Of a stretch of DNA of 23,898 nt, positions 7,062 to 21,160 are shown piece by piece (position 1 is the stretch's first letter; the number at the start of each line of letters is the position of its first letter). The position numbers were made by a program, and so were the translations under genes. The stretch covers positions 1 through 23,898 of the IMG/VR virus record IMGVR_UViG_3300038701_002434, one strand, 5' to 3'. Origin of the DNA: a virus. Under the pieces are notes generated by a model. It was not told the origin of the DNA, searched no databases, and worked only from the letters and a program-made list of their open reading frames with translations.

Positions 7062-7505
7062 ATGGGATTGAAACGGAAACTAGTTAGAGAGGCGGTAGTC
7101 AATTTGCTAAAAGCAGATTCGACGTTAATCGCATTAGTTCCGGCCGCTCAAATTTTCGAATCAAGGGTTGAAACGGTTTGGCGGAGTGAGCTCCCGGTCA
7201 TTGCGGTTTATACAAAAAACGAATCGGCGGACGATTTTAATCAATACGATAGAGTAATGAATCGGACGCTAGAATTAGCGGTCGAAATTGTCGTCGAAGG
7301 GACTCAAGACCTAGACGATGATTTGGACGAGATCGCGGACGCGGTCGAAAATGTCCTACTCCATTCGCAAAACCTCGTAAATTCTGGACTATGGCAATCT
7401 ATTTCTATGAATGGATTTCAAACGGCCTATTCGGGAGAAAGTGGAAAAGCGGTCGGAGCGGGACGAATGGAATTTGAAATTGAATATCAAACTATTTTCG
7501 ATTAG
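7062..7505 (+). CDS. Tail terminator protein (gpU-like)
   Basis: Probable tail terminator (147 residues) that caps the growing tail tube and provides the surface for head joining. The N-terminus (LVREAVVNLLKADSTLIALV) is a helix typical of gpU and other minor tail terminators. It is followed by ELPVIAVYTKNESADDF and a strand-helix-strand region with LELAVEIVVEG and a DDLDEIADAVENVLL helix, the usual alpha/beta arrangement of this group. The C-terminus has GRMEFEIEYQTIF, matching the last strand. Its position just before the tail tube gene is standard (lambda has Z, U, V). The Z-like gene that would be expected nearby is instead found at 22947-23510. Confidence 0.78.
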   Translation: MGLKRKLVREAVVNLLKADSTLIALVPAAQIFESRVETVWRSELPVIAVYTKNESADDFNQYDRVMNRTLELAVEIVVEGTQDLDDDLDEIADAVENVLLHSQNLVNSGLWQSISMNGFQTAYSGESGKAVGAGRMEFEIEYQTIFD

Positions 7506-11211: not shown

Positions 11212-11992
11212 CCAAATTATGTTTTTTAAGAAAAATAGGATCGATCTAGACTTTGACGCCGTCACGGTCACAGCGACTCAAGACACGGACAACGCAATTT
11301 ATTGCCGAAATAGATCCCTACAATCCGCCTATGTGACTAATGGGTCGGTTGATTCCGACAATACCGAAATCAATATTGATCTCGCCGATCCCTATACAAT
11401 CGATTATCTCTTACTTTTAGGCCATAATTTCGCGTCCTATAAGCTTGAATATTATAATGGGTCGAGTTGGGTCTCGGTGGTCGATCAAACGAGCAATGCC
11501 AATGCCTCGACCTCTCACGAATTGAGCTCCCCTATTTCTGCAAGTCTTTGGAAATTGACGATCCGGGGGACTATCGTTTCGGATTCCGATAAATTGCTAC
11601 AGCGTCTCGTTTTAACAGAAAAACTAGGCCAATTCTCATACTGGCCTAAGATTAAAAAGCCAATGCATGACGCCGGAAAGATCGTCCGAAAAGCCCTATC
11701 GGGGAAAAAGGCGGTCGCTCGACAAGTCGGATTTTTTAAATTTTCCCTCGAGGTTTCCAATTGGAAAGGCTCGGATTTAACTCTCGTTGAGACTCTTTAT
11801 AATCAATTCGAGGGTTTCGAGGTATGGCTCGGAGCCGGTGACGAGGCTCAATTCTCTTTTGCGGCCGAAGGTTACAGGAAAAAAGATTTATATCTCATGC
11901 AATGCGTGAATGATTACTCTCCGGAATTTTTGAAGGGGATTTATGTTAATGGGCTCGATTTGGATATTGCGCTCGAGGAAGTTGTATTTTGA
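11204..11992 (+). CDS. Distal tail protein with possible carbohydrate-binding-like domain
   Basis: A 262-residue protein at the place where siphoviruses encode the first tail-tip component. The N-terminal half (about 15-140) is a beta-sandwich pattern with INIDLADPYTIDYLLLLGHNF and YKLEYYNGSSWVSVVD, which is reminiscent of discoidin or F5/8 type C folds, and WKLTIRGT near the end of that domain. The C-terminal half (FFKFSLEVSNWKGSDL, then a VETLYNQFEGFEVWLGAG segment) looks like a distal-tail type core that contacts the tail tube. The ATG at 11204 overlaps the tape measure stop by eight bases and has GGGAG nine bases upstream. The role as distal tail (Dit-type) protein is inferred from position and pattern. 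Confidence 0.68.
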   Translation: MPSQIMFFKKNRIDLDFDAVTVTATQDTDNAIYCRNRSLQSAYVTNGSVDSDNTEINIDLADPYTIDYLLLLGHNFASYKLEYYNGSSWVSVVDQTSNANASTSHELSSPISASLWKLTIRGTIVSDSDKLLQRLVLTEKLGQFSYWPKIKKPMHDAGKIVRKALSGKKAVARQVGFFKFSLEVSNWKGSDLTLVETLYNQFEGFEVWLGAGDEAQFSFAAEGYRKKDLYLMQCVNDYSPEFLKGIYVNGLDLDIALEEVVF

Positions 11993-13203
11993 TTAGAGTT
12001 TATTTTACTCCTTTTGACGGGAGTGGAAATTTTGGATCTGAAATTGAGGTCACGAAAGACGTTGACCAAAGTGGAATTGGGAAAATCCGGCGCTATTTGG
12101 ACTCAACCGAATACGACGTCGGGATCCTTCGATATTCCAATCTCAAAATAAAAATGAGAAACACTTCGGGGAGATATTCGAGTCCTGATTATGTCTCGTC
12201 AATTTTCAACGAGAAAATATCGGGCTCCAAAGTCCGGGTGACTTGGAACATCGACGCCTATAATCCTCAATGCGGCAATGCTATTTGCGGACAAGTGAGA
12301 CTCGGTCAAGAGGTCGATTTATATAATGGAATCCTCGACGATTCTAATTCAAAGATGAGAGCCGGGGATCAAATCGTAAATTTTGATATATTATCTCTAG
12401 ACTCAACGATCTCGAAAGTCGAAACGCCGACGATTTTAGTCGCCGATTATTTCTCGGACGCTCTCTATAAGGTATTAAATCAAGCGGCCATTACTGATTA
12501 TCTCACGGTCGACGCTGGCAATATCTCTTGCACTATAGACCGACAATTCGATGACGTTTCGTGGTTTAGTGAGAAAACCGGGAAAGAATCAATCGAAAAG
12601 CTACTTTTAGCGTCGAATTCAATCCTTTATGTCGAGGGGACGACGGTTTATGTCGCGCCTCGGACTCCGGGCTCAACGATTTTAAAGACGTTTTACGGTC
12701 AAGCCTCGGAAAATGGCAATGAGGATATTTTAGATCTGATTAATATTAGAAACGGGCAAAACCGAATTATTAATTTTGTCCGATTTAAAGATACAACGGA
12801 CGTCTCAAAGAATTCGGATTCAATTAATACTTACGGGGTCCGACTCAAAGAGCTCGATATCGATTTTGTCACCAATACAACGAAAAGAACGGATATTTGC
12901 GCCGATATCGTGGGAGAGTTTAAGGATCCTAAACAGGAATTTACGCTCGAGACCTATCTCAATTATGAAAACTATAATTTGAGTTTTCTTAATAGAGTCG
13001 CGGTTGATTATCCGACTCCCTATTATAACGCCGGCTCCGCATTTCCAATTGTTGAAACGGCAACGGTTGGGGACGAGGCAACTCCATTGCCCTACTCGGT
13101 TTGGGAGTTTGAAGTAGATCCGACTCAAATCAATTTCAAGATTATGGGAATTGAGATTAATCCGAAAGACGAAACAATTTCATTTAATTTGAGGGGGATT
13201 TAA
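11989..13203 (+). CDS. Tail-tip hub / tail-associated protein
   Basis: Probable tail hub protein (404 residues). Translation starts at TTG 11989, overlapping the preceding TGA in TTGA, with GAGGAA at 11975-11980. The N-terminus (IRVYFTPFDGSGNFGSEIEVT) and beta-rich hub-like part with VRVTWNIDAYNPQ, VDLYNGILDD and VNFDILSLDS are in keeping with gp27-like or Tal-type hub domains. Later segments include KTGKESIEKLLLASNSILYVEG and INIRNGQNRIINFVRF, and the C-terminus (NFKIMGIEINPKDETISF) is typical of a closing beta strand pair in this group. No lytic domain is visible. Two Cys lie close together in NPQCGNAICG. Position between the distal tail protein and fibres supports the call. Confidence 0.72.
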   Translation: MIRVYFTPFDGSGNFGSEIEVTKDVDQSGIGKIRRYLDSTEYDVGILRYSNLKIKMRNTSGRYSSPDYVSSIFNEKISGSKVRVTWNIDAYNPQCGNAICGQVRLGQEVDLYNGILDDSNSKMRAGDQIVNFDILSLDSTISKVETPTILVADYFSDALYKVLNQAAITDYLTVDAGNISCTIDRQFDDVSWFSEKTGKESIEKLLLASNSILYVEGTTVYVAPRTPGSTILKTFYGQASENGNEDILDLINIRNGQNRIINFVRFKDTTDVSKNSDSINTYGVRLKELDIDFVTNTTKRTDICADIVGEFKDPKQEFTLETYLNYENYNLSFLNRVAVDYPTPYYNAGSAFPIVETATVGDEATPLPYSVWEFEVDPTQINFKIMGIEINPKDETISFNLRGI

Positions 13204-13967
13204 TGGGAACGGATAATATTCCGGCGAGATCCGGCGGACAAACGATCACGGCTCAATTTTTCAACTTACTCCGATCGGTTTTAGGAGTGGACATAGTTCC
13301 TAGAAACTCAAGCGGGGTCACTACAGATTTAGCGGGCTCGGTTGGGACCTCGACTTATAGGTTTCTCTCGGCATTTGCTCAAAAGTACAACGTCGGCGCA
13401 TCGGCTAGTGGTTTGTCTATTGAGGAGGTTTCCGGCTCAATAATAGTAAAAGTCAATTCAACCGAGGTTTTTAGATTATCGACGACTGAGCTCTTAACTA
13501 CTGGGATTGATTTTGCGGACAATATTATCACTCGAGACGCATTAAAGGACGACGTTGTAAAAGGGGTCTCAAGCCAAATTATAACGAACTCGACGTCAAC
13601 GAGCCTCGTTGATATTACCAACGCAACGACGACTTTCACTCGAACCGGAAAACCGGTTGATATTTTCTTACAGCCTTCATCGACCACGAATAGCGCTCAA
13701 CTCGGCGTTGAAAACTCAAGCGGCGGCCGTTGCGCAATGTATATTGCCTTATTGAGAGGTGGATCGGTGGTCGCGCGGTGGAATATGGATTTTCAGCGAA
13801 GCGGAACAGGTCAAACCTACTCTTTTAATTCTTGGCCCGCCGGCGGAATTCGCTGGACTGATTTCACGACCTCGACCGGCTCAACGACTTATAAACTGCA
13901 ATGGCAAAAAATCGGCGGCACTACTATGTATTGCAATTATCTCGAACTAGTCGCAGCGGAAAGGTAG
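13203..13967 (+). CDS. Tail fibre / receptor-binding-type protein 1
   Basis: A 254-residue beta-rich protein, Ser/Thr/Gly-rich, likely a short tail fibre. Its N-terminus, IPARSGGQTITAQFFNLL, shares the pattern IP-R--GQ-I----FN-L with the next gene (IPTRLNGQNIENSWFNIL), so the two probably use the same attachment module to reach the tail tip. The centre has a likely strand-turn region (LSIEEVSGSIIVKVNSTEVFRL) and the C-terminal half resembles a beta-sandwich head domain with Trp residues at FNSWPAGGIRW and LQWQKIGG. The start ATG at 13203 overlaps the hub gene stop and has a strong GAGGGGG site. The role in receptor contact is inference from position and composition. Confidence 0.75.
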   Translation: MGTDNIPARSGGQTITAQFFNLLRSVLGVDIVPRNSSGVTTDLAGSVGTSTYRFLSAFAQKYNVGASASGLSIEEVSGSIIVKVNSTEVFRLSTTELLTTGIDFADNIITRDALKDDVVKGVSSQIITNSTSTSLVDITNATTTFTRTGKPVDIFLQPSSTTNSAQLGVENSSGGRCAMYIALLRGGSVVARWNMDFQRSGTGQTYSFNSWPAGGIRWTDFTTSTGSTTYKLQWQKIGGTTMYCNYLELVAAER

Positions 13968-13970
13968 AAA

Positions 13971-14453
13971 ATGTCAGCTTCAACGATACCGACAAGATTA
14001 AACGGGCAAAATATAGAAAACTCTTGGTTTAATATTCTTAAAACGGTCATCGAGGAGGGCTCCGGGCAATGGACAAAATATACAGTCACCTACTCGGATC
14101 TTTCAGCGGCCGCATTGACGAATGATATCGAGCTCTTTTCACTCCTCGCAAAAGAGATCCCCGAGGTCATGATTATAAAACATTCGGTTTCGTTCCAAGA
14201 CTCCGGGGGCGGCTCGATTTCTGCGTTTTCGGTTTCCCTCGGAGTCACGGGCGATTTAACTAAAATGGCGTCCGCCTTTGACGTTTATCAAGCGGCGGGT
14301 GCAACGGTTTTTCAGGTTTCCGAGTATGCAACGCCGGAAAACTTTTCGAGTGCAACGAGTATTAGAATCGCCGCAACGTCAGTCGGTGCGAATTTAGATC
14401 AAGCAGATCAAGGGAGTTTAGACGTATGGGTCAAGACAAGTCTTTTGCCATAA
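13971..14453 (+). CDS. Tail fibre-like protein 2
   Basis: A 160-residue protein sharing an N-terminal module with the previous gene (IPTRLNGQNIENSWFNIL at residues about 6-23). The rest is a single beta-rich domain with YTVTYSDLSAAALTNDIELFSL, then SISAFSVSLG and a Thr/Ser/Ala-rich end (ATSVGANLDQADQGSLDVWV). Domains of this type occur in many phage tail proteins near the receptor-binding end. AAAGG lies seven bases before the ATG. The 3' end overlaps the next gene by 28 bases, so the signal-peptide part of the next gene is encoded within the last codons of this one. Precise role not known; probably a tail-tip appendage. Confidence 0.72.
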   Translation: MSASTIPTRLNGQNIENSWFNILKTVIEEGSGQWTKYTVTYSDLSAAALTNDIELFSLLAKEIPEVMIIKHSVSFQDSGGGSISAFSVSLGVTGDLTKMASAFDVYQAAGATVFQVSEYATPENFSSATSIRIAATSVGANLDQADQGSLDVWVKTSLLP

Positions 14454-15397
14454 TATTTTTTCTTTTACTTTTAATCCCCTCAATTACTTTAGGGCAACGA
14501 GAGGGGCGATTTGATTCCGTTAAATATCGACAGGGGTCGAATTATGTCGAGCTCAAGGCCTCCGGGTCTCTTGCGACCGACTGGACTCTCACATTGCCGG
14601 TCAATGATGGGAATTCCGGAGATTATTTGCAGACCGACGGGAATGGCGTTAGTAGCTGGCAACCGGTATCAGGGGCGACGACTTCAGTAGCAAATAAAAC
14701 CGGCGCTTATACCGCATTGACTTCGGATGATGTGTTGACGGCGGACGCCTCCGGCGGAGCCTTTACAATTACACTTTATACTTGCTCGGGGAATTCCGGG
14801 AAAAAGCTAATCATTAAGAAAACCGATTCGAGTTATAACATCGTGACGGTTGATGGAAATGGCTCGGAAACCATAGACGGGGATTTAAATAAAAAACTCA
14901 CATGGACCCAAGAGTTTATAGAAATCGTTTGCGACGGGACCGATTGGCACGTTGTGGCTCGGAGTTGGGATAAACAAGCCTATTCCTTTTCGGCATCTTG
15001 GAACGGTCGAAGCACTTTAACATTTGCCGACGACGACGCTTGGCTTGAAAAGATCTCGGTTGATACTGTTCGAATCCGGTGGTTTTGGTCTGTTAGTGGT
15101 GGATCTGGAGCGGCTGCAAATTTACAAATATCAATCCCGAATTCTTGGACAGTCGATACAAATAAGGTCTCTCAAATAAACTCTTTAGTTCATAAAGTCG
15201 GGACTTATTTTTGGTATGATAACTCCGGTTCTTCGACTCAAGTCGGAGATAACCACGGACCTTGTCTAGTAGCTGGCTCCAGTCTTTTAGGTTTTAGGTA
15301 TCCGTGGGATTCCAACGGAATGCTAGGGAATATTTTCGCAAACGCGGATAGATTCGCCGGTTGGTGTGACGTACCTATTAGTCAGTGGTCGGAATAA
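14426..15397 (+). CDS. Receptor-binding-type protein with an N-terminal signal peptide
   Basis: A 323-residue protein with an export signal before a fibre-like body. Residues 1-23 read like a Sec signal: MGQDKS, then a hydrophobic FAIIFFLLLLIPSI, then a possible cleavage at TLG/Q. The body begins with FDSVKYRQGSNYVELKASG and has TLPVNDGNSGDYLQTDGNG, a motif frequent in tail fibres and surface adhesins, then a beta domain with GSETIDG and an end at VPISQWSE, resembling the closing VPI-GW of many tail-fibre tips. AAGGGAG lies about nine bases before ATG 14426. Tail proteins normally assemble in the cytoplasm, so a signal peptide is odd. It may be a surface-displayed protein of the lysogen, or the hydrophobic start may serve as an anchor. 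Confidence 0.75.
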   Translation: MGQDKSFAIIFFLLLLIPSITLGQREGRFDSVKYRQGSNYVELKASGSLATDWTLTLPVNDGNSGDYLQTDGNGVSSWQPVSGATTSVANKTGAYTALTSDDVLTADASGGAFTITLYTCSGNSGKKLIIKKTDSSYNIVTVDGNGSETIDGDLNKKLTWTQEFIEIVCDGTDWHVVARSWDKQAYSFSASWNGRSTLTFADDDAWLEKISVDTVRIRWFWSVSGGSGAAANLQISIPNSWTVDTNKVSQINSLVHKVGTYFWYDNSGSSTQVGDNHGPCLVAGSSLLGFRYPWDSNGMLGNIFANADRFAGWCDVPISQWSE

Positions 15398-15948
15398 TGA
15401 AATTTTTCGTCCTAGTCTTTTTACTCCTCTCCGCTTGCGACCGTGATCGATTGCAAGTAATGGAAATTCCGGAGGAGTGCGAAAGATACGACGAGGATCT
15501 CTATTTCTACGTCAATTTTAAAAGGCTTAATGCCGTAGCAAAAGCCGATTGCCTTTATGCTCCGGATATTATCTCGGAGGATCAATATAGGGTCCTCTTT
15601 TCCTTGAGATTTGATGACCTCTCAATAGGGGAAAAACTCAAAATCGATATTGAGACTCAATTCTCAAACGAAATGCCCAAGCCCATGATGCTCTCTTATT
15701 ACTGGGTCTTAACGGGTACACCTTTCGATATTTTCGGGGAATACGGCTCAAGGCCTAAAGGGGAGAATTTCGACAATTATATCATTCATCACAAAGTCGT
15801 TAAGTCTACCGGGGGATGGGAAATAAAAGACTCCGGAACTCAATACGCTAATTTTGTAGCCTTCGCAGCTAGTGGGGAGAAAAAACTCGAAAACGAATGG
15901 ATCCGCATAGACCGCGGATACGCGTCTATTTTCATTGACCGAAAATGA
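15397..15948 (+). CDS. Putative lipoprotein coupled to the exported fibre-like gene
   Basis: A 183-residue putative lipoprotein of unknown role. ATG 15397 overlaps the previous stop as TAATGA. The first residues, MKFFVLVFLLLSAC, make a short charged n-region, hydrophobic core and lipobox LSAC with Cys14. Asp follows the Cys, which in enterobacteria favours retention in the inner membrane; host rules may differ. The mature part is beta-rich with Trp, Tyr and Phe (MMLSYYWVLTGTPFDIFG, then GENFDNYIIHHKVVKSTGGW) and may form one globular domain. Coupling to a gene for an exported fibre-like protein suggests a shared job at the envelope, such as a surface change or exclusion of other phages in a lysogen. 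This is inference; no family is recognised. Confidence 0.78.
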   Translation: MKFFVLVFLLLSACDRDRLQVMEIPEECERYDEDLYFYVNFKRLNAVAKADCLYAPDIISEDQYRVLFSLRFDDLSIGEKLKIDIETQFSNEMPKPMMLSYYWVLTGTPFDIFGEYGSRPKGENFDNYIIHHKVVKSTGGWEIKDSGTQYANFVAFAASGEKKLENEWIRIDRGYASIFIDRK

Positions 15949-15958
15949 GGGGGAAATC

Positions 15959-16408
15959 ATGGAAGAAACGAAACCAAAAATCCCGGACTGGAAAACGATC
16001 CTCGCGGGGTCCGGCGTCGCAATGGCGCTTTATACAATCGCTCCTTTCAAAGAGTTTTTCTTCACGCGTGAAGAGGGCCAAGGGATTCAAAAACAAGTTG
16101 AGGAAAACAAAAGGGAAATTAAAGGGGTTAAAACTCAAATCGTAAATCTCCAAGAAAAAGTCACAAAAAAAATTGTGGACTTAGAAGATGAACTCGAGGG
16201 CCAAATCCGGGAAAGTCAAAAAGAAGTCGAGCGAACGATTCGAGACGAAATGAGAAACGGGTTTGAGTCCTTTACTAAAAGATCAACTCAAATCGATGAC
16301 CGAATAATAGACATGATTAAAAGAGAAAATTCCGAGGTCAAAGATCAACTCAAATCAATTGAGAATCGCGTTCAACGAATTGAAAACCATAAATTTAAGG
16401 GGAATTAA
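15959..16408 (+). CDS. Membrane-anchored coiled-coil protein
   Basis: A 149-residue protein with one N-terminal membrane segment (around residues 12-28, ILAGSGVAMALYTIAP) followed by a long charged coiled coil (about 35-140) with heptad-like spacing of Ile, Val and Leu, for example IKGVKTQIVNLQEKVTKKIV and VKDQLKSIENRVQRIE. ATG 15959 is chosen because GAGGGGGAAAT lies just before it; another in-frame ATG at 15935 lacks such a site. Membrane plus coiled-coil proteins near lysis genes can be holin-associated or spanin-like, but the order (membrane first, long helix after) does not match a classic spanin clearly. It could also be a structural or envelope-bound protein. Neighbouring genes encode further small membrane-linked proteins. 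Confidence 0.75.
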   Translation: MEETKPKIPDWKTILAGSGVAMALYTIAPFKEFFFTREEGQGIQKQVEENKREIKGVKTQIVNLQEKVTKKIVDLEDELEGQIRESQKEVERTIRDEMRNGFESFTKRSTQIDDRIIDMIKRENSEVKDQLKSIENRVQRIENHKFKGN

Positions 16409-16410
16409 AT

Positions 16411-16740
16411 ATGGATACCAAAGAAACCAAAGATCTAGTCTCATTTTTTGCCTCTCTTGCTAACGCGGTCGATTTAGCGACTGCCGATGGACTTCAGGCC
16501 GCCGATTTTGCTCTATTTATGGGTGCCATCGGGAAAATCCCGGCCGCAATTGATGGAATTTCCGAAGTGCCAAAAGAGGTCAAAGATCTAGACGCCGCTG
16601 AAAAAGCCGAAATTATCGCTCAACTCAAAGCGGAACTCGATTTAAGAGACGACGTTTTAGAGGGGATTTTAGAAGAGGGTCTAACGATCGGTGTCGGTCT
16701 ATGGGGCCTTGTCGAGAAAATCCGCGCGGCTAGAAATTAA
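16411..16740 (+). CDS. Small conserved-looking phage protein
   Basis: A soluble, mostly helical 109-residue protein. Key stretches are FASLANAVDLATADGLQAAD, IGKIPAAIDGISEVPKEVKDL and LDLRDDVLEGILEEGLTIGVG. I recall small phage proteins with the same LP-A--GI---P-E--DLD---- pattern near holin and endolysin genes, but their function is not known and I cannot check the match. The C-terminal helix (LTIGVGLWGLVEKIRAA) is moderately hydrophobic. AGGGG lies nine or so bases before ATG 16411, and its stop overlaps the next ATG (TAATGA). This placement suggests a shared transcript with the membrane proteins on both sides. Confidence 0.72.
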   Translation: MDTKETKDLVSFFASLANAVDLATADGLQAADFALFMGAIGKIPAAIDGISEVPKEVKDLDAAEKAEIIAQLKAELDLRDDVLEGILEEGLTIGVGLWGLVEKIRAARN

Positions 16741-17003
16741 TGAGTTTTTTATCAGGGCTATGGGAGGTCTTTAAATTCGTCTCATGGCTCTTGCCCGTCC
16801 TGAAAACTCTTTATAGGCAATACGAGCGATTTAAGTCCAGCGAGGAAAAAGAGGAGCTCAAAGCGGCCTTATTAAAGGCCGTTGAGACCGGGGATAATCG
16901 AGAGCTCGAAATCCTTATAGGGAATCCCAACGCCGGAAAACCAACAAAACACAATATCCCCGACCTCAAGACTCGTCCGGCAAAAGATAGGGGGAATCAA
17001 TGA
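16740..17003 (+). CDS. Small protein with N-terminal amphipathic or membrane segment (possible holin-related)
   Basis: An 87-residue protein starting with a hydrophobic aromatic segment, FLSGLWEVFKFVSWLLPVLKT (about residues 3-23; the stretch is broken by Glu and Lys, so it may lie along the membrane surface rather than cross it). The rest is highly charged (RFKSSEEKEELKAALLKAVE, then a Pro/Lys-rich C-terminus). Small proteins of this form are sometimes holins or pinholins, but there is no decisive feature. The ATG overlaps the preceding stop, and the 3' end overlaps the next gene by four bases. It belongs to a run of five coupled small genes between the fibres and the integrase, so involvement in lysis is plausible but unproven. 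Confidence 0.68.
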   Translation: MSFLSGLWEVFKFVSWLLPVLKTLYRQYERFKSSEEKEELKAALLKAVETGDNRELEILIGNPNAGKPTKHNIPDLKTRPAKDRGNQ

Positions 17004-17290
17004 GAAGTGCATTCTTTCAATGGCTAATGATTCATTTCCTTTTAATGATCGTGGCTTTTTTGGTTCTATTTTTTACGGGGTGCGGATCCATTACAAAACA
17101 AATCGAGTCCGAGATCTGGTCCGTTGATCCGCAAGACGGCTCAATTTTTCGGGTCCTAGATAACGGGACCGAGGAGTTTATTCTCTGTACAGATCAGAGC
17201 TCTAAGAAATTTAAGGCCATGTATTACACGGATTTGCAGAAATGGCTTAATTATGCCGCGGAAAATTGCTCTTGTCGGGTGCCGGAATGA
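17000..17290 (+). CDS. Putative lipoprotein (possible outer-membrane spanin or surface protein)
   Basis: A 96-residue protein with a long hydrophobic N-terminus (FFQWLMIHFLLMIVAFLVLFF) ending in TGC, a plausible lipobox with Cys28. The mature region is small (about 68 residues), with GSITKQIESEIWSVDPQDGS and two later Cys in ENCSCRVPE. A small lipoprotein near a holin-like gene could be an outer-membrane spanin subunit (o-spanin), as in lambda Rz1, but spanins are usually Pro-rich and this is not. It might also be an immunity or surface lipoprotein. AGGGGGAATC precedes the ATG, giving a good ribosome site. The start overlaps the preceding stop by four bases. Confidence 0.75.
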   Translation: MRSAFFQWLMIHFLLMIVAFLVLFFTGCGSITKQIESEIWSVDPQDGSIFRVLDNGTEEFILCTDQSSKKFKAMYYTDLQKWLNYAAENCSCRVPE

Positions 17291-17665: not shown

Positions 17666-18586
17666 ATGGACATTCTAAAACCGCTAGATCAAGCGATTGA
17701 ATTCTATATTGCGAACGTTTCGAGTAAGAAAACGGAGAGCACTTTTAAGCAAGAGCAAAAGACTCTAAGGGATTTCCTTGTCTTACTCCGGTCTGTGAAG
17801 GGGCTCCCGGTCCCGGAAAAGGTCGACGAGGTCTCTCCCCTTCATTTGGAGGGGGTCCAGACCTTAGTTAAAACTCATGAGGGGAAAGATCTCCAAAATT
17901 CTACGATCAACCGGAAATTTAATACAATTAGACACTTTTTCCAAAAACTCGAGGATTGGAACGTTTTAGAGGTCTCTCCATGCCGGAAAGTAAAGGATCT
18001 CCCGGAGGATTATAACGTCCGAAGGCCTTGGACCGACTCTCAATTCTTAATGGTTTATGCTCAAGGGGAAAAATGGATTCAAGATATCTTGTTTTTCGTT
18101 AAATTCACTGGAGCTCGAGCCTCGTCGGTGTCTCTATTAGAGTGGAAAGACGTCGATTTTAAAAACGAGGTGATAAAACTCTCTCATAGAAAGGGGAAAG
18201 ATAAATCCCTAAAACTCTATGACGTCCCGATGATTCCCGAGGTATTTGCTATGCTGAAAAAAAGGCAACGTATGGGTGCTTACGGGGCCAATACGCCGGT
18301 TTTTCTAACATCTAAGGGGAAACGGCCAAGTCCGACTCATATATCAAGAGAGACGCGGAGACTCGTCGAAAAGGCGGGGTTGAGTTTTTTAAAGATCGGG
18401 ATTCACGGCCTCCGGCATTCGGTGGCGACAGCTTTACATAATTCAGGGGCCTCGACTGAGACCATTAGGAGAATGCTCGGTCATTCGAATACGAAAACCA
18501 CGGAAAGATATTTGCATTCTAATACGGCGGATTTAATGGACGCAATGAATCGGGCATTTAGGCCGGCTAAGACGGGTTCAGATTAA
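17666..18586 (+). CDS. Tyrosine-type integrase
   Basis: Site-specific recombinase that joins phage attP to host attB and, with a directionality factor, excises the prophage. The 306-residue protein has an N-terminal core-binding helical domain (about residues 5-105) and a C-terminal catalytic domain. Catalytic residues can be seen: Arg151 in TGARASSV, a likely Lys in the RKGKDKSLKLYDVPM hairpin, His247 and Arg250 in IHGLRHS, His273 in LGHSNTKTT and Tyr282 in RYLHSN. The length is like XerC/D-type and short phage integrases with no large arm-binding domain. Its ATG follows AGGGG with very short spacing (one or two bases), so translation may be weak. The att core lies about 260 bases downstream (18845-18890). 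No separate excisionase was recognised. Confidence 0.96.
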   Translation: MDILKPLDQAIEFYIANVSSKKTESTFKQEQKTLRDFLVLLRSVKGLPVPEKVDEVSPLHLEGVQTLVKTHEGKDLQNSTINRKFNTIRHFFQKLEDWNVLEVSPCRKVKDLPEDYNVRRPWTDSQFLMVYAQGEKWIQDILFFVKFTGARASSVSLLEWKDVDFKNEVIKLSHRKGKDKSLKLYDVPMIPEVFAMLKKRQRMGAYGANTPVFLTSKGKRPSPTHISRETRRLVEKAGLSFLKIGIHGLRHSVATALHNSGASTETIRRMLGHSNTKTTERYLHSNTADLMDAMNRAFRPAKTGSD

Positions 18587-18833: not shown

Positions 18834-18903
18834 TTAGATCAATTTGGCGTCCCCTACGGGAGTCGAACCCGTGTCTTCACCGTGAAAGGGGAGATTGATC
18901 TAA
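18834..18903. repeat. Inverted repeat surrounding the att core
   Basis: TTAGATCAAT at 18834-18843 and ATTGATCTAA at 18894-18903 are perfect inverted copies of ten bases, placed almost symmetrically around the tRNA-Glu fragment. Such repeats may be binding sites for integrase or a directionality protein. The spacing of 50 bases is too wide for a standard pair of core-type sites, which normally flank a six- to eight-base overlap. Confidence 0.6.
18845..18890 (-). other. attP core: 3' part of tRNA-Glu (UUC)
   Basis: Read on the minus strand this is the anticodon loop to CCA end of a tRNA-Glu. The anticodon UUC lies at 18884-18886 within the loop CTTTCAC. The anticodon-stem 3' side GGTGA follows, then a T arm with stem ACGGG/CCCGT around loop TTCGACT, the acceptor strand, discriminator G and encoded CCA at 18845-18847. 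The 5' half is missing: bases beyond 18891 do not continue the stem or show D-arm sequence. This is a typical phage att core that restores the tRNA 3' end on integration. With phage genes on both sides, it is attP rather than attL or attR. The exact crossover point cannot be read without the host sequence. Confidence 0.88.
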
Positions 18904-18952
18904 TTTCGTATTTAACGAGGACTTTTCGGTTTTAAAAATCCGGGGAGGGACC

Positions 18953-20519: not shown

Positions 20520-20724
20520 TGTTTTTAAAGTTAATTGGCGAGTCGCGACCTATAACCGGCATAAACCCGATCAATTCAATCTGAATAAAGAGGAGCTCAT
20601 TTTCTCAACAAAAGAGAATGCCGAGAGATTCGAACGAAATCTGATAGAGGCCGCGGATTTTCTGGGAAAAATTACTCTCGAGACTCAAATTAAAGAAATA
20701 GAATTGGATTCCCCAAATGAATAA
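20509..20724 (+). CDS. Hypothetical small protein
   Basis: I do not recognise this 71-residue protein. It begins VFKVNWRVATYNRHKPDQFN, which looks like a beta-hairpin, then has a Glu/Lys-rich helix (STKENAERFERNLIEAADFL) and an acidic end. ATG 20509 has AGGGG about six bases upstream and overlaps the preceding gene by 11 bases. The stop overlaps the start of the hydrolase gene by eight bases. The tight packing shows it belongs to the same transcript as the replication genes. Nothing more can be said with confidence. Confidence 0.68.
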   Translation: MTSSVFKVNWRVATYNRHKPDQFNLNKEELIFSTKENAERFERNLIEAADFLGKITLETQIKEIELDSPNE

Positions 20725-21160
20725 ACCAAAAGTTATCTATTACGGCGGACTTCTTAATTCGGTTTTTAAATGGCTCGAGCGTCACCTAATTTTAGAGCTC
20801 AAGTCAGATTTTCCTCAATACGAATTCGAGGGGCGGACTTGGCTCAATAAGGATCCTATCCCCGAGGGGACGGCTCTAGTTATCGGGCATAGCTTCGGCG
20901 GCTATAGAGCTCTAAAAATGACTAGGGCCTTAAATATTCCGGTCATTTCAATTGATCCTCGCTGGATTGTATTTAAGGAGCTCAAGACCTTTAACAGATC
21001 AACGGTCAATTTCTATCAATGCGGATTTATGAATGGATTCCCGGTTTTGGGGTCCGCTTTAAATTATATGATTAAGGATTTAAGTCATATAGGGATTTTA
21101 AAAGCATTTAAGGTGCATTCAAGAGCTCGAATGATCTTAGGGGGGAAACGTGGTGTCTGA
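20717..21160 (+). CDS. Small alpha/beta hydrolase-like protein
   Basis: A 147-residue protein with a nucleophile elbow GHSFGG (residues 57-62, Ser59) following the strand TALVI. A plausible Asp lies in ISIDPRW (Asp80) and a plausible His in DLSHIGI (His124), so a Ser-Asp-His triad is possible. It begins with PKVIYYGGLLNSVFKWLERH, like the first strand and helix of the fold. It is very short for the family, so it may be a minimal hydrolase or lack the usual lid. It lies two genes upstream of the endolysin, so it might attack envelope lipids or esters during lysis, as LysB does in mycobacteriophages, but no homology to LysB was seen. A role in prophage-host physiology is equally possible. Confidence 0.7.
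   Translation: MNKPKVIYYGGLLNSVFKWLERHLILELKSDFPQYEFEGRTWLNKDPIPEGTALVIGHSFGGYRALKMTRALNIPVISIDPRWIVFKELKTFNRSTVNFYQCGFMNGFPVLGSALNYMIKDLSHIGILKAFKVHSRARMILGGKRGV

Follow-up and report, generated by a model that had tools for sequence, protein, structure and literature searches.

The window analysed here, the whole 23.9 kb stretch of the viral record IMGVR_UViG_3300038701_002434, belongs by gene content to a lambda-like temperate siphophage: it encodes a GpA-type terminase large subunit, a gpW-like protein, a portal, a protease-capsid protein, a cement protein, a tail tube and a tape measure, together with tail tip genes, fibres, a lysis region, a CHAP/TIGR02594 endolysin and an integrase. 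Next to the integrase (17666–18586), at 18841–18893, lies a likely attP; its reverse complement reads as tRNA-Glu(UUC), 3' half, spanning anticodon loop to CCA. This half matches plasmids at 84–91% over 46–53 bp and is missing from 58 genomes of the Pseudobacteriovorax MAG phylum; a candidate tmRNA at 18855–18944 (Rfam 17.9 bits against a gathering threshold of 47) was rejected, as the sequence reads as the tRNA-Glu(UUC) 3' half. Terminase scans, comparison of the portal and integrase with plasmids, and codon usage pointed to no host. Outside the structural region, a small protein (20717–21160) carries a lipase-like GHSFGG motif and has no family match.

The gene of interest (14426–15397), a fibre gene with a predicted signal peptide, lies at the tail-fibre position, preceded by a tail gene (11989–13203), for which no second locus turned up, and by two further fibre genes (Table 1). 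Downstream, 15959–17290 encodes a coiled-coil membrane protein, a pair of small proteins and another lipoprotein, in an order resembling that at two other phage loci, L177 and L179; despite a distance of 4 kb to the endolysin, a role in lysis is probable.

Table 1. Features of the fibre and lipoprotein region of the window.
Feature	Position	Strand	Remarks
Tail-fibre gene 1	13203..13967	+	N-terminal motif MGTDNIPARSGGQTITAQFFNLLRSVL, common with fibre gene 2
Tail-fibre gene 2	13971..14453	+	Motif MSASTIPTRLNGQNIENSWFNILKTVI; 28-nt overlap with the signal-fibre start
Shine-Dalgarno AAGGGAG	14410..14416	+	Read directly; within fibre gene 2, close to its 3' end
Predicted Sec signal peptide, residues 1–24 (MGQDKSFAIIFFLLLLIPSITLGQ)	14426..14497	+	Own rule-based scorer, hydropathy
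N-terminal fibre module, residues 25–84 (GRFDSVKYRQGSNYVELKA...TLTLPVNDGNSGDYLQTDGNGVSSW)	14498..14677	+	Shared module, seen in phage fibres
Central fibre domain, residues 85–182	14678..14971	+	Conserved in 80 viral loci; AlphaFold; fold matches
C-terminal head/tip, residues 183–323 and stop codon	14972..15397	+	Aligns with the L177, L179 and L192 fibre heads
Lipoprotein gene	15397..15948	+	Lipobox LLSAC, Cys14 (codon 15436–15438), Asp at +2
Membrane segment and long coiled coil	15959..16408	+	Lysis-region type protein
Second small lipoprotein	17000..17290	+	FFTGC lipobox; outer-spanin-like by position only

The fibre ORF encodes 323 aa from an ATG at 14426, with the Shine-Dalgarno sequence 9 nt 5' of it, and the next in-frame starts (TTG 14594 and TTG 14627) have no comparable Shine-Dalgarno. 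The predicted signal consists of a short n-region, a strongly hydrophobic core interrupted by P18-S19 (19-residue hydropathy peak of 2.07 at residue 6) and a T-L-G cleavage site; the weak charge of the n-region is a point against it. Signals were called with our own rule-based scorer, whose background lies near 1%, and plausible calls in the window were confined to this product and that of 17000–17290. A third call, at 7062–7505, was discounted because it depends on an internal TTG, and the signal of the 15397–15948 product was identified by eye via its lipobox rather than by the scorer.

Behind the predicted signal the product is built as a fibre. Other phage fibres contain the module of residues 25–84, as do large exported fibre proteins from genomes of the Pseudobacteriovorax MAG phylum. 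The central domain models as a phage tailspike/baseplate-type domain: AlphaFold blocks gave pLDDT 71–91 over residues 91–180, with structural matches (Z 10.5–14.6) to the Acinetobacter tailspike 24qj, CBA120 TSP4, T4 gp9, gp10 and a capsid spike. The model of the head/tip is of low confidence; its C-terminus (...WCDVPISQWSE) aligns with phage fibre ends such as SVPISGWKG, STPITGWED and SVPITNWNN, and a second signal-bearing fibre terminates in HPTPIDGWEN. The product shares with ordinary tail fibres (L177, L179, L192, and the domains of T4 gp9/gp10 and CBA120 TSP4) its module order, central fold, VPIxxW head ending and location among tail genes, but those fibres have a different N-terminal domain and no signal. 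A difference is also seen within the window, where the fibres encoded at 13203 and 13971 have a 27-residue N-terminal motif in common (blastp 41% over residues 1–27, E 5e-5), which we infer to be their tail-docking end. This motif is missing from the 14426–15397 product, in which the predicted signal peptide occupies the place of the sister fibres' common start.

The junction with the following gene is TAATG, the stop codon TAA (15395–15397) overlapping the ATG at 15397, and the product of that gene begins with MKFFVLVFLLLSAC. No relatives of it were detected in an 8-mer scan of viral contigs, in phage tblastn (E up to 10), in phrogs, Pfam, NCBIfam or PDB sequences, or in three more viral records; a weak PADLOC match (E 0.015) was treated as noise. 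The single-sequence model (pLDDT 39.6) is too poor for a structure search, and an early impression of a jelly-roll in it was abandoned. Three elements of the original prediction made from the bare sequence are borne out here: a signal peptide on the 14426–15397 product, still as a prediction but now with a single good start, a hydrophobic core and a cleavage site; its fibre nature and tail-fibre-tip ending, through the modules, the domain fold and the aligned phage fibre ends; and the coupled gene with a lipobox.

Signals are rare among ORFs bearing fibre modules (5/168 by the strict rule), at a rate nonetheless above that of other phage ORFs (15/1,905; Fisher p=0.019). Among the module-bearing ORFs of two viral-contig scans we identified signal-bearing fibres in five more contigs; the tailed phages concerned are unrelated, and each such fibre gene has tail genes around it. 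These are a podophage with the signal-bearing fibre at the tail-fibre position (L181, G001); a podophage with a consecutive run of fibre-type genes, all signal-bearing (L216, G002); a record with sheath-like and baseplate genes (L219, G003), in which three signal-bearing fibre genes lie downstream of a tail gene and two further fibre genes are signal-less; a myophage (L297, G072) whose one convincing signal in the record is on the fibre gene directly after the baseplate genes; and a siphophage (L328, G074) with the signal-plus-module layout of the window fibre, directly after a tail gene at the tail-fibre position, in a gene that runs off the contig. The sister cases have canonical A-x-A cleavage sites, with ordinary fibre domains immediately after. 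In none of these contigs does a lipoprotein gene directly follow the signal-fibre (the L328 gene leaves its contig and permits no judgement). The original prediction had proposed that fibre and lipoprotein may form one surface system, to be sought as a pair in other phages; the pair was not found and its lipoprotein is without relatives in the collections searched, so that a conserved two-part device is not supported, while the signal-fibre alone recurs. The view that an exported tail-type fibre departs from the norm, also taken there, gains support, and the pattern is now seen in five other phage contigs. Among the papers listed by our literature searches, which reached few subscription journals, no description of Sec-signal tail fibres came up. 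Signal peptides were seen on two other small, virion-like proteins at the loci compared, a cement-like protein after the capsid gene in L192 (1183–1677; six mature cysteines) and a single-module protein in L179 (10797–11195; two mature cysteines).

Two comparisons serve as natural controls. L181 and L192 are syntenic podophages with fibres of 43.6% identity at a shared locus, the homology beginning at residue 20 of the L181 fibre and at residue 1 of its L192 orthologue; L181 has a 19–20-residue signal where L192 has its Met at the homologous residue. These boundaries imply gain or loss of the signal on a protein that its position marks as the tail fibre, and the comparison shows the predicted signal as an add-on to an ordinary tail fibre. 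A homologue lacking the hydrophobic start at the same locus had been named in the original prediction as a refuting result; one exists in this sister case, and it does not refute export. In G002 (IMGVR_UViG_3300009788_000204; L258, L259), 12 of the 20 genes after the capsid gene carry signals and none of the 20 before it do (p=5e-5). The signal-bearers include a phrog_399 structural protein, in which the profile match begins right after the signal, a phrog_1645 protein, and a nozzle-like protein recognised by sequence resemblance only. This pattern favours a virion destination. The genes of the L181/L192 pair and of G002 are hard to read as host adhesins.

Proteins that fold in an oxidising compartment are expected to have an even number of cysteines. 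In a set of 20 signal-bearing phage proteins that includes a partial one and several from one phage, the mature cysteine count, where not zero, was even in 11 of 12, against 44 of 97 signal-less fibres (Fisher p=0.002) and 260 of 595 other ORFs (Fisher p=0.0009), in a test that was post hoc and small. Cysteine content itself was not raised in the signal-bearing proteins (p=0.48), parity alone being significant. The even counts fit real export. Further stretches of five phage records, annotated apart from those of G073, added no signal-bearing fibre on which the cysteine result could be tested independently.

We tentatively favour the reading that the 14426 gene encodes a tail-type receptor-binding fibre whose docking N-terminus appears to have been replaced by a cleavable Sec signal, with fitting to the virion its likeliest fate. 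No promoter or terminator site is prominent around the fibre and lipoprotein pair, which makes late expression likely. The fibre would be made late, alongside the tail genes, threaded via SecYEG, then trimmed and folded in the periplasm, probably as a trimer with disulphides; it might join virions outside the cytoplasm after the holin opens the inner membrane, a step in which we place little confidence. The lipoprotein would be exported from the same message and, judging from its position, would most likely work in the envelope, where exclusion is one conceivable role. The start, the predicted signal, the modules, the operon position, the loss of the sister motif, the recurrence and the syntenic pair are read from the sequence and its comparison; actual export, cleavage and trimerisation are what we infer. 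Of these steps export has the best support, and over all readings that involve it export is quite probable. Fitting to the virion outside the cytoplasm, for which the L181/L192 pair and G002 speak, is slightly favoured over receptor blocking or coating of the cell as the destination of the fibre. A counterpoint is that the fibre is without the motif of both sister fibres, so that it might never attach to a tail.

That missing motif also speaks for an alternative which we regard as rather unlikely, in which fibre and lipoprotein act together at the envelope to block or occupy the receptor of the phage, as a superinfection-exclusion device or a decoy, with the fibre tip capping the receptor and the lipoprotein working like T5 Llp. 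The lipoprotein gene sits at a known place for exclusion lipoproteins, T5 llp lying after pb5, a receptor-binding gene, and purified pb5 added to cells blocks infection by itself (PMC9586334). Like the genes for Llp and Cor, the window gene is directly downstream of a receptor-binding-type gene and encodes a lipobox, but its product has about 170 mature residues against the 61 of Llp (PMC9586334), and it matched nothing in phrogs, Pfam, NCBIfam or phage tblastn that would tie it to Llp/Cor. Lambda lom sets a precedent for an exported product from the tail-fibre region of lambda-like phages, although Lom forms a beta-barrel in the outer membrane and is made in lysogens, whereas the 14426 product is a late-operon fibre (PMC12309495). 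Against receptor blocking stand the absence of the pair from the other signal-fibre phages examined, the lack of detected relatives of the lipoprotein, and the need for a periplasmic fibre still to get to the cell surface.

It is improbable that the fibre instead serves lysogens as a surface adhesin assembled from phage components, comparable to the mosaic adhesive trimers (MATs) of Bdellovibrio. The MATs of Bdellovibrio bacteriovorus do consist of a signal peptide, phage-like fibre modules and a diverse, phage-like tip, as does the 14426 product, but they are encoded by bacterial chromosomal genes and are mostly much longer, whereas the 14426 gene lies in a phage late operon (PMC10769870). 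In MATs the signal is followed at once by a conserved, beta-rich domain some 130 residues long (PMC10769870); such a domain is not evident in the 14426 product, the GSNYV-type module beginning about 12 residues past the predicted cleavage site. The N-terminal module is common to very large exported fibres of the Pseudobacteriovorax MAG phylum, and the integrase with its tRNA-Glu-like att candidate would suit a lysogen, but that att sequence was found in 0/58 genomes of the phylum and the two genes look co-transcribed with the tail genes. Display by lysogens, one of the original proposals, is weakened by this late tail operon location with no prominent promoter or terminator. In the same phylum, ORFs of up to about 15,000 codons (L291, L290, L280 and others) carry repeated fibre modules of this type, and apparently far exceed the described MAT proteins in size.

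We give a similarly small chance to the hydrophobic start remaining uncleaved and anchoring the fibre in the tail or the membrane: its hydrophobic stretch is strong (maximum 2.07 over 19 residues) and its cleavage site merely moderate, but the proline-serine break and short core resemble a signal, and the sister cases have A-x-A sites with fibre domains at once after them. A chance hydrophobic N-terminus or a wrong start codon, conceivable at the scorer's background of about 1%, is very improbable given the good ribosome site, the lack of an alternative start, the L181/L192 pair and the finding of such fibres in further phages.

In textbook assembly the entire tail is built in the cytoplasm. 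To our knowledge, no mechanism for attaching tail parts beyond it is known for tailed phages. The recurrence in unrelated phages suggests that the cellular export channel carries tail parts for some phages, and it is possible, if doubtful as yet, that some tailed phages route their tail fibres via Sec as processed periplasmic proteins, one podophage apparently doing so with tail adaptor and nozzle proteins as well, and finish the tail beyond the cytoplasm when the cell lyses. The recurrent Sec-signal fibre genes, one of them with a signal-less syntenic orthologue, offer a handle on the addition of tail parts outside the cytoplasm, and bear on whether export permits tips with disulphide bonds, whether it keeps tail proteins out of reach of phage sensors in the cytosol, or whether phages reuse their own fibres as exported receptor blockers. 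For annotation, they warn that signal-bearing fibre-like genes are not necessarily contaminants or bacterial adhesins. If tails are indeed completed by way of Sec, the window fibre would be one case of an unrecognised assembly route.
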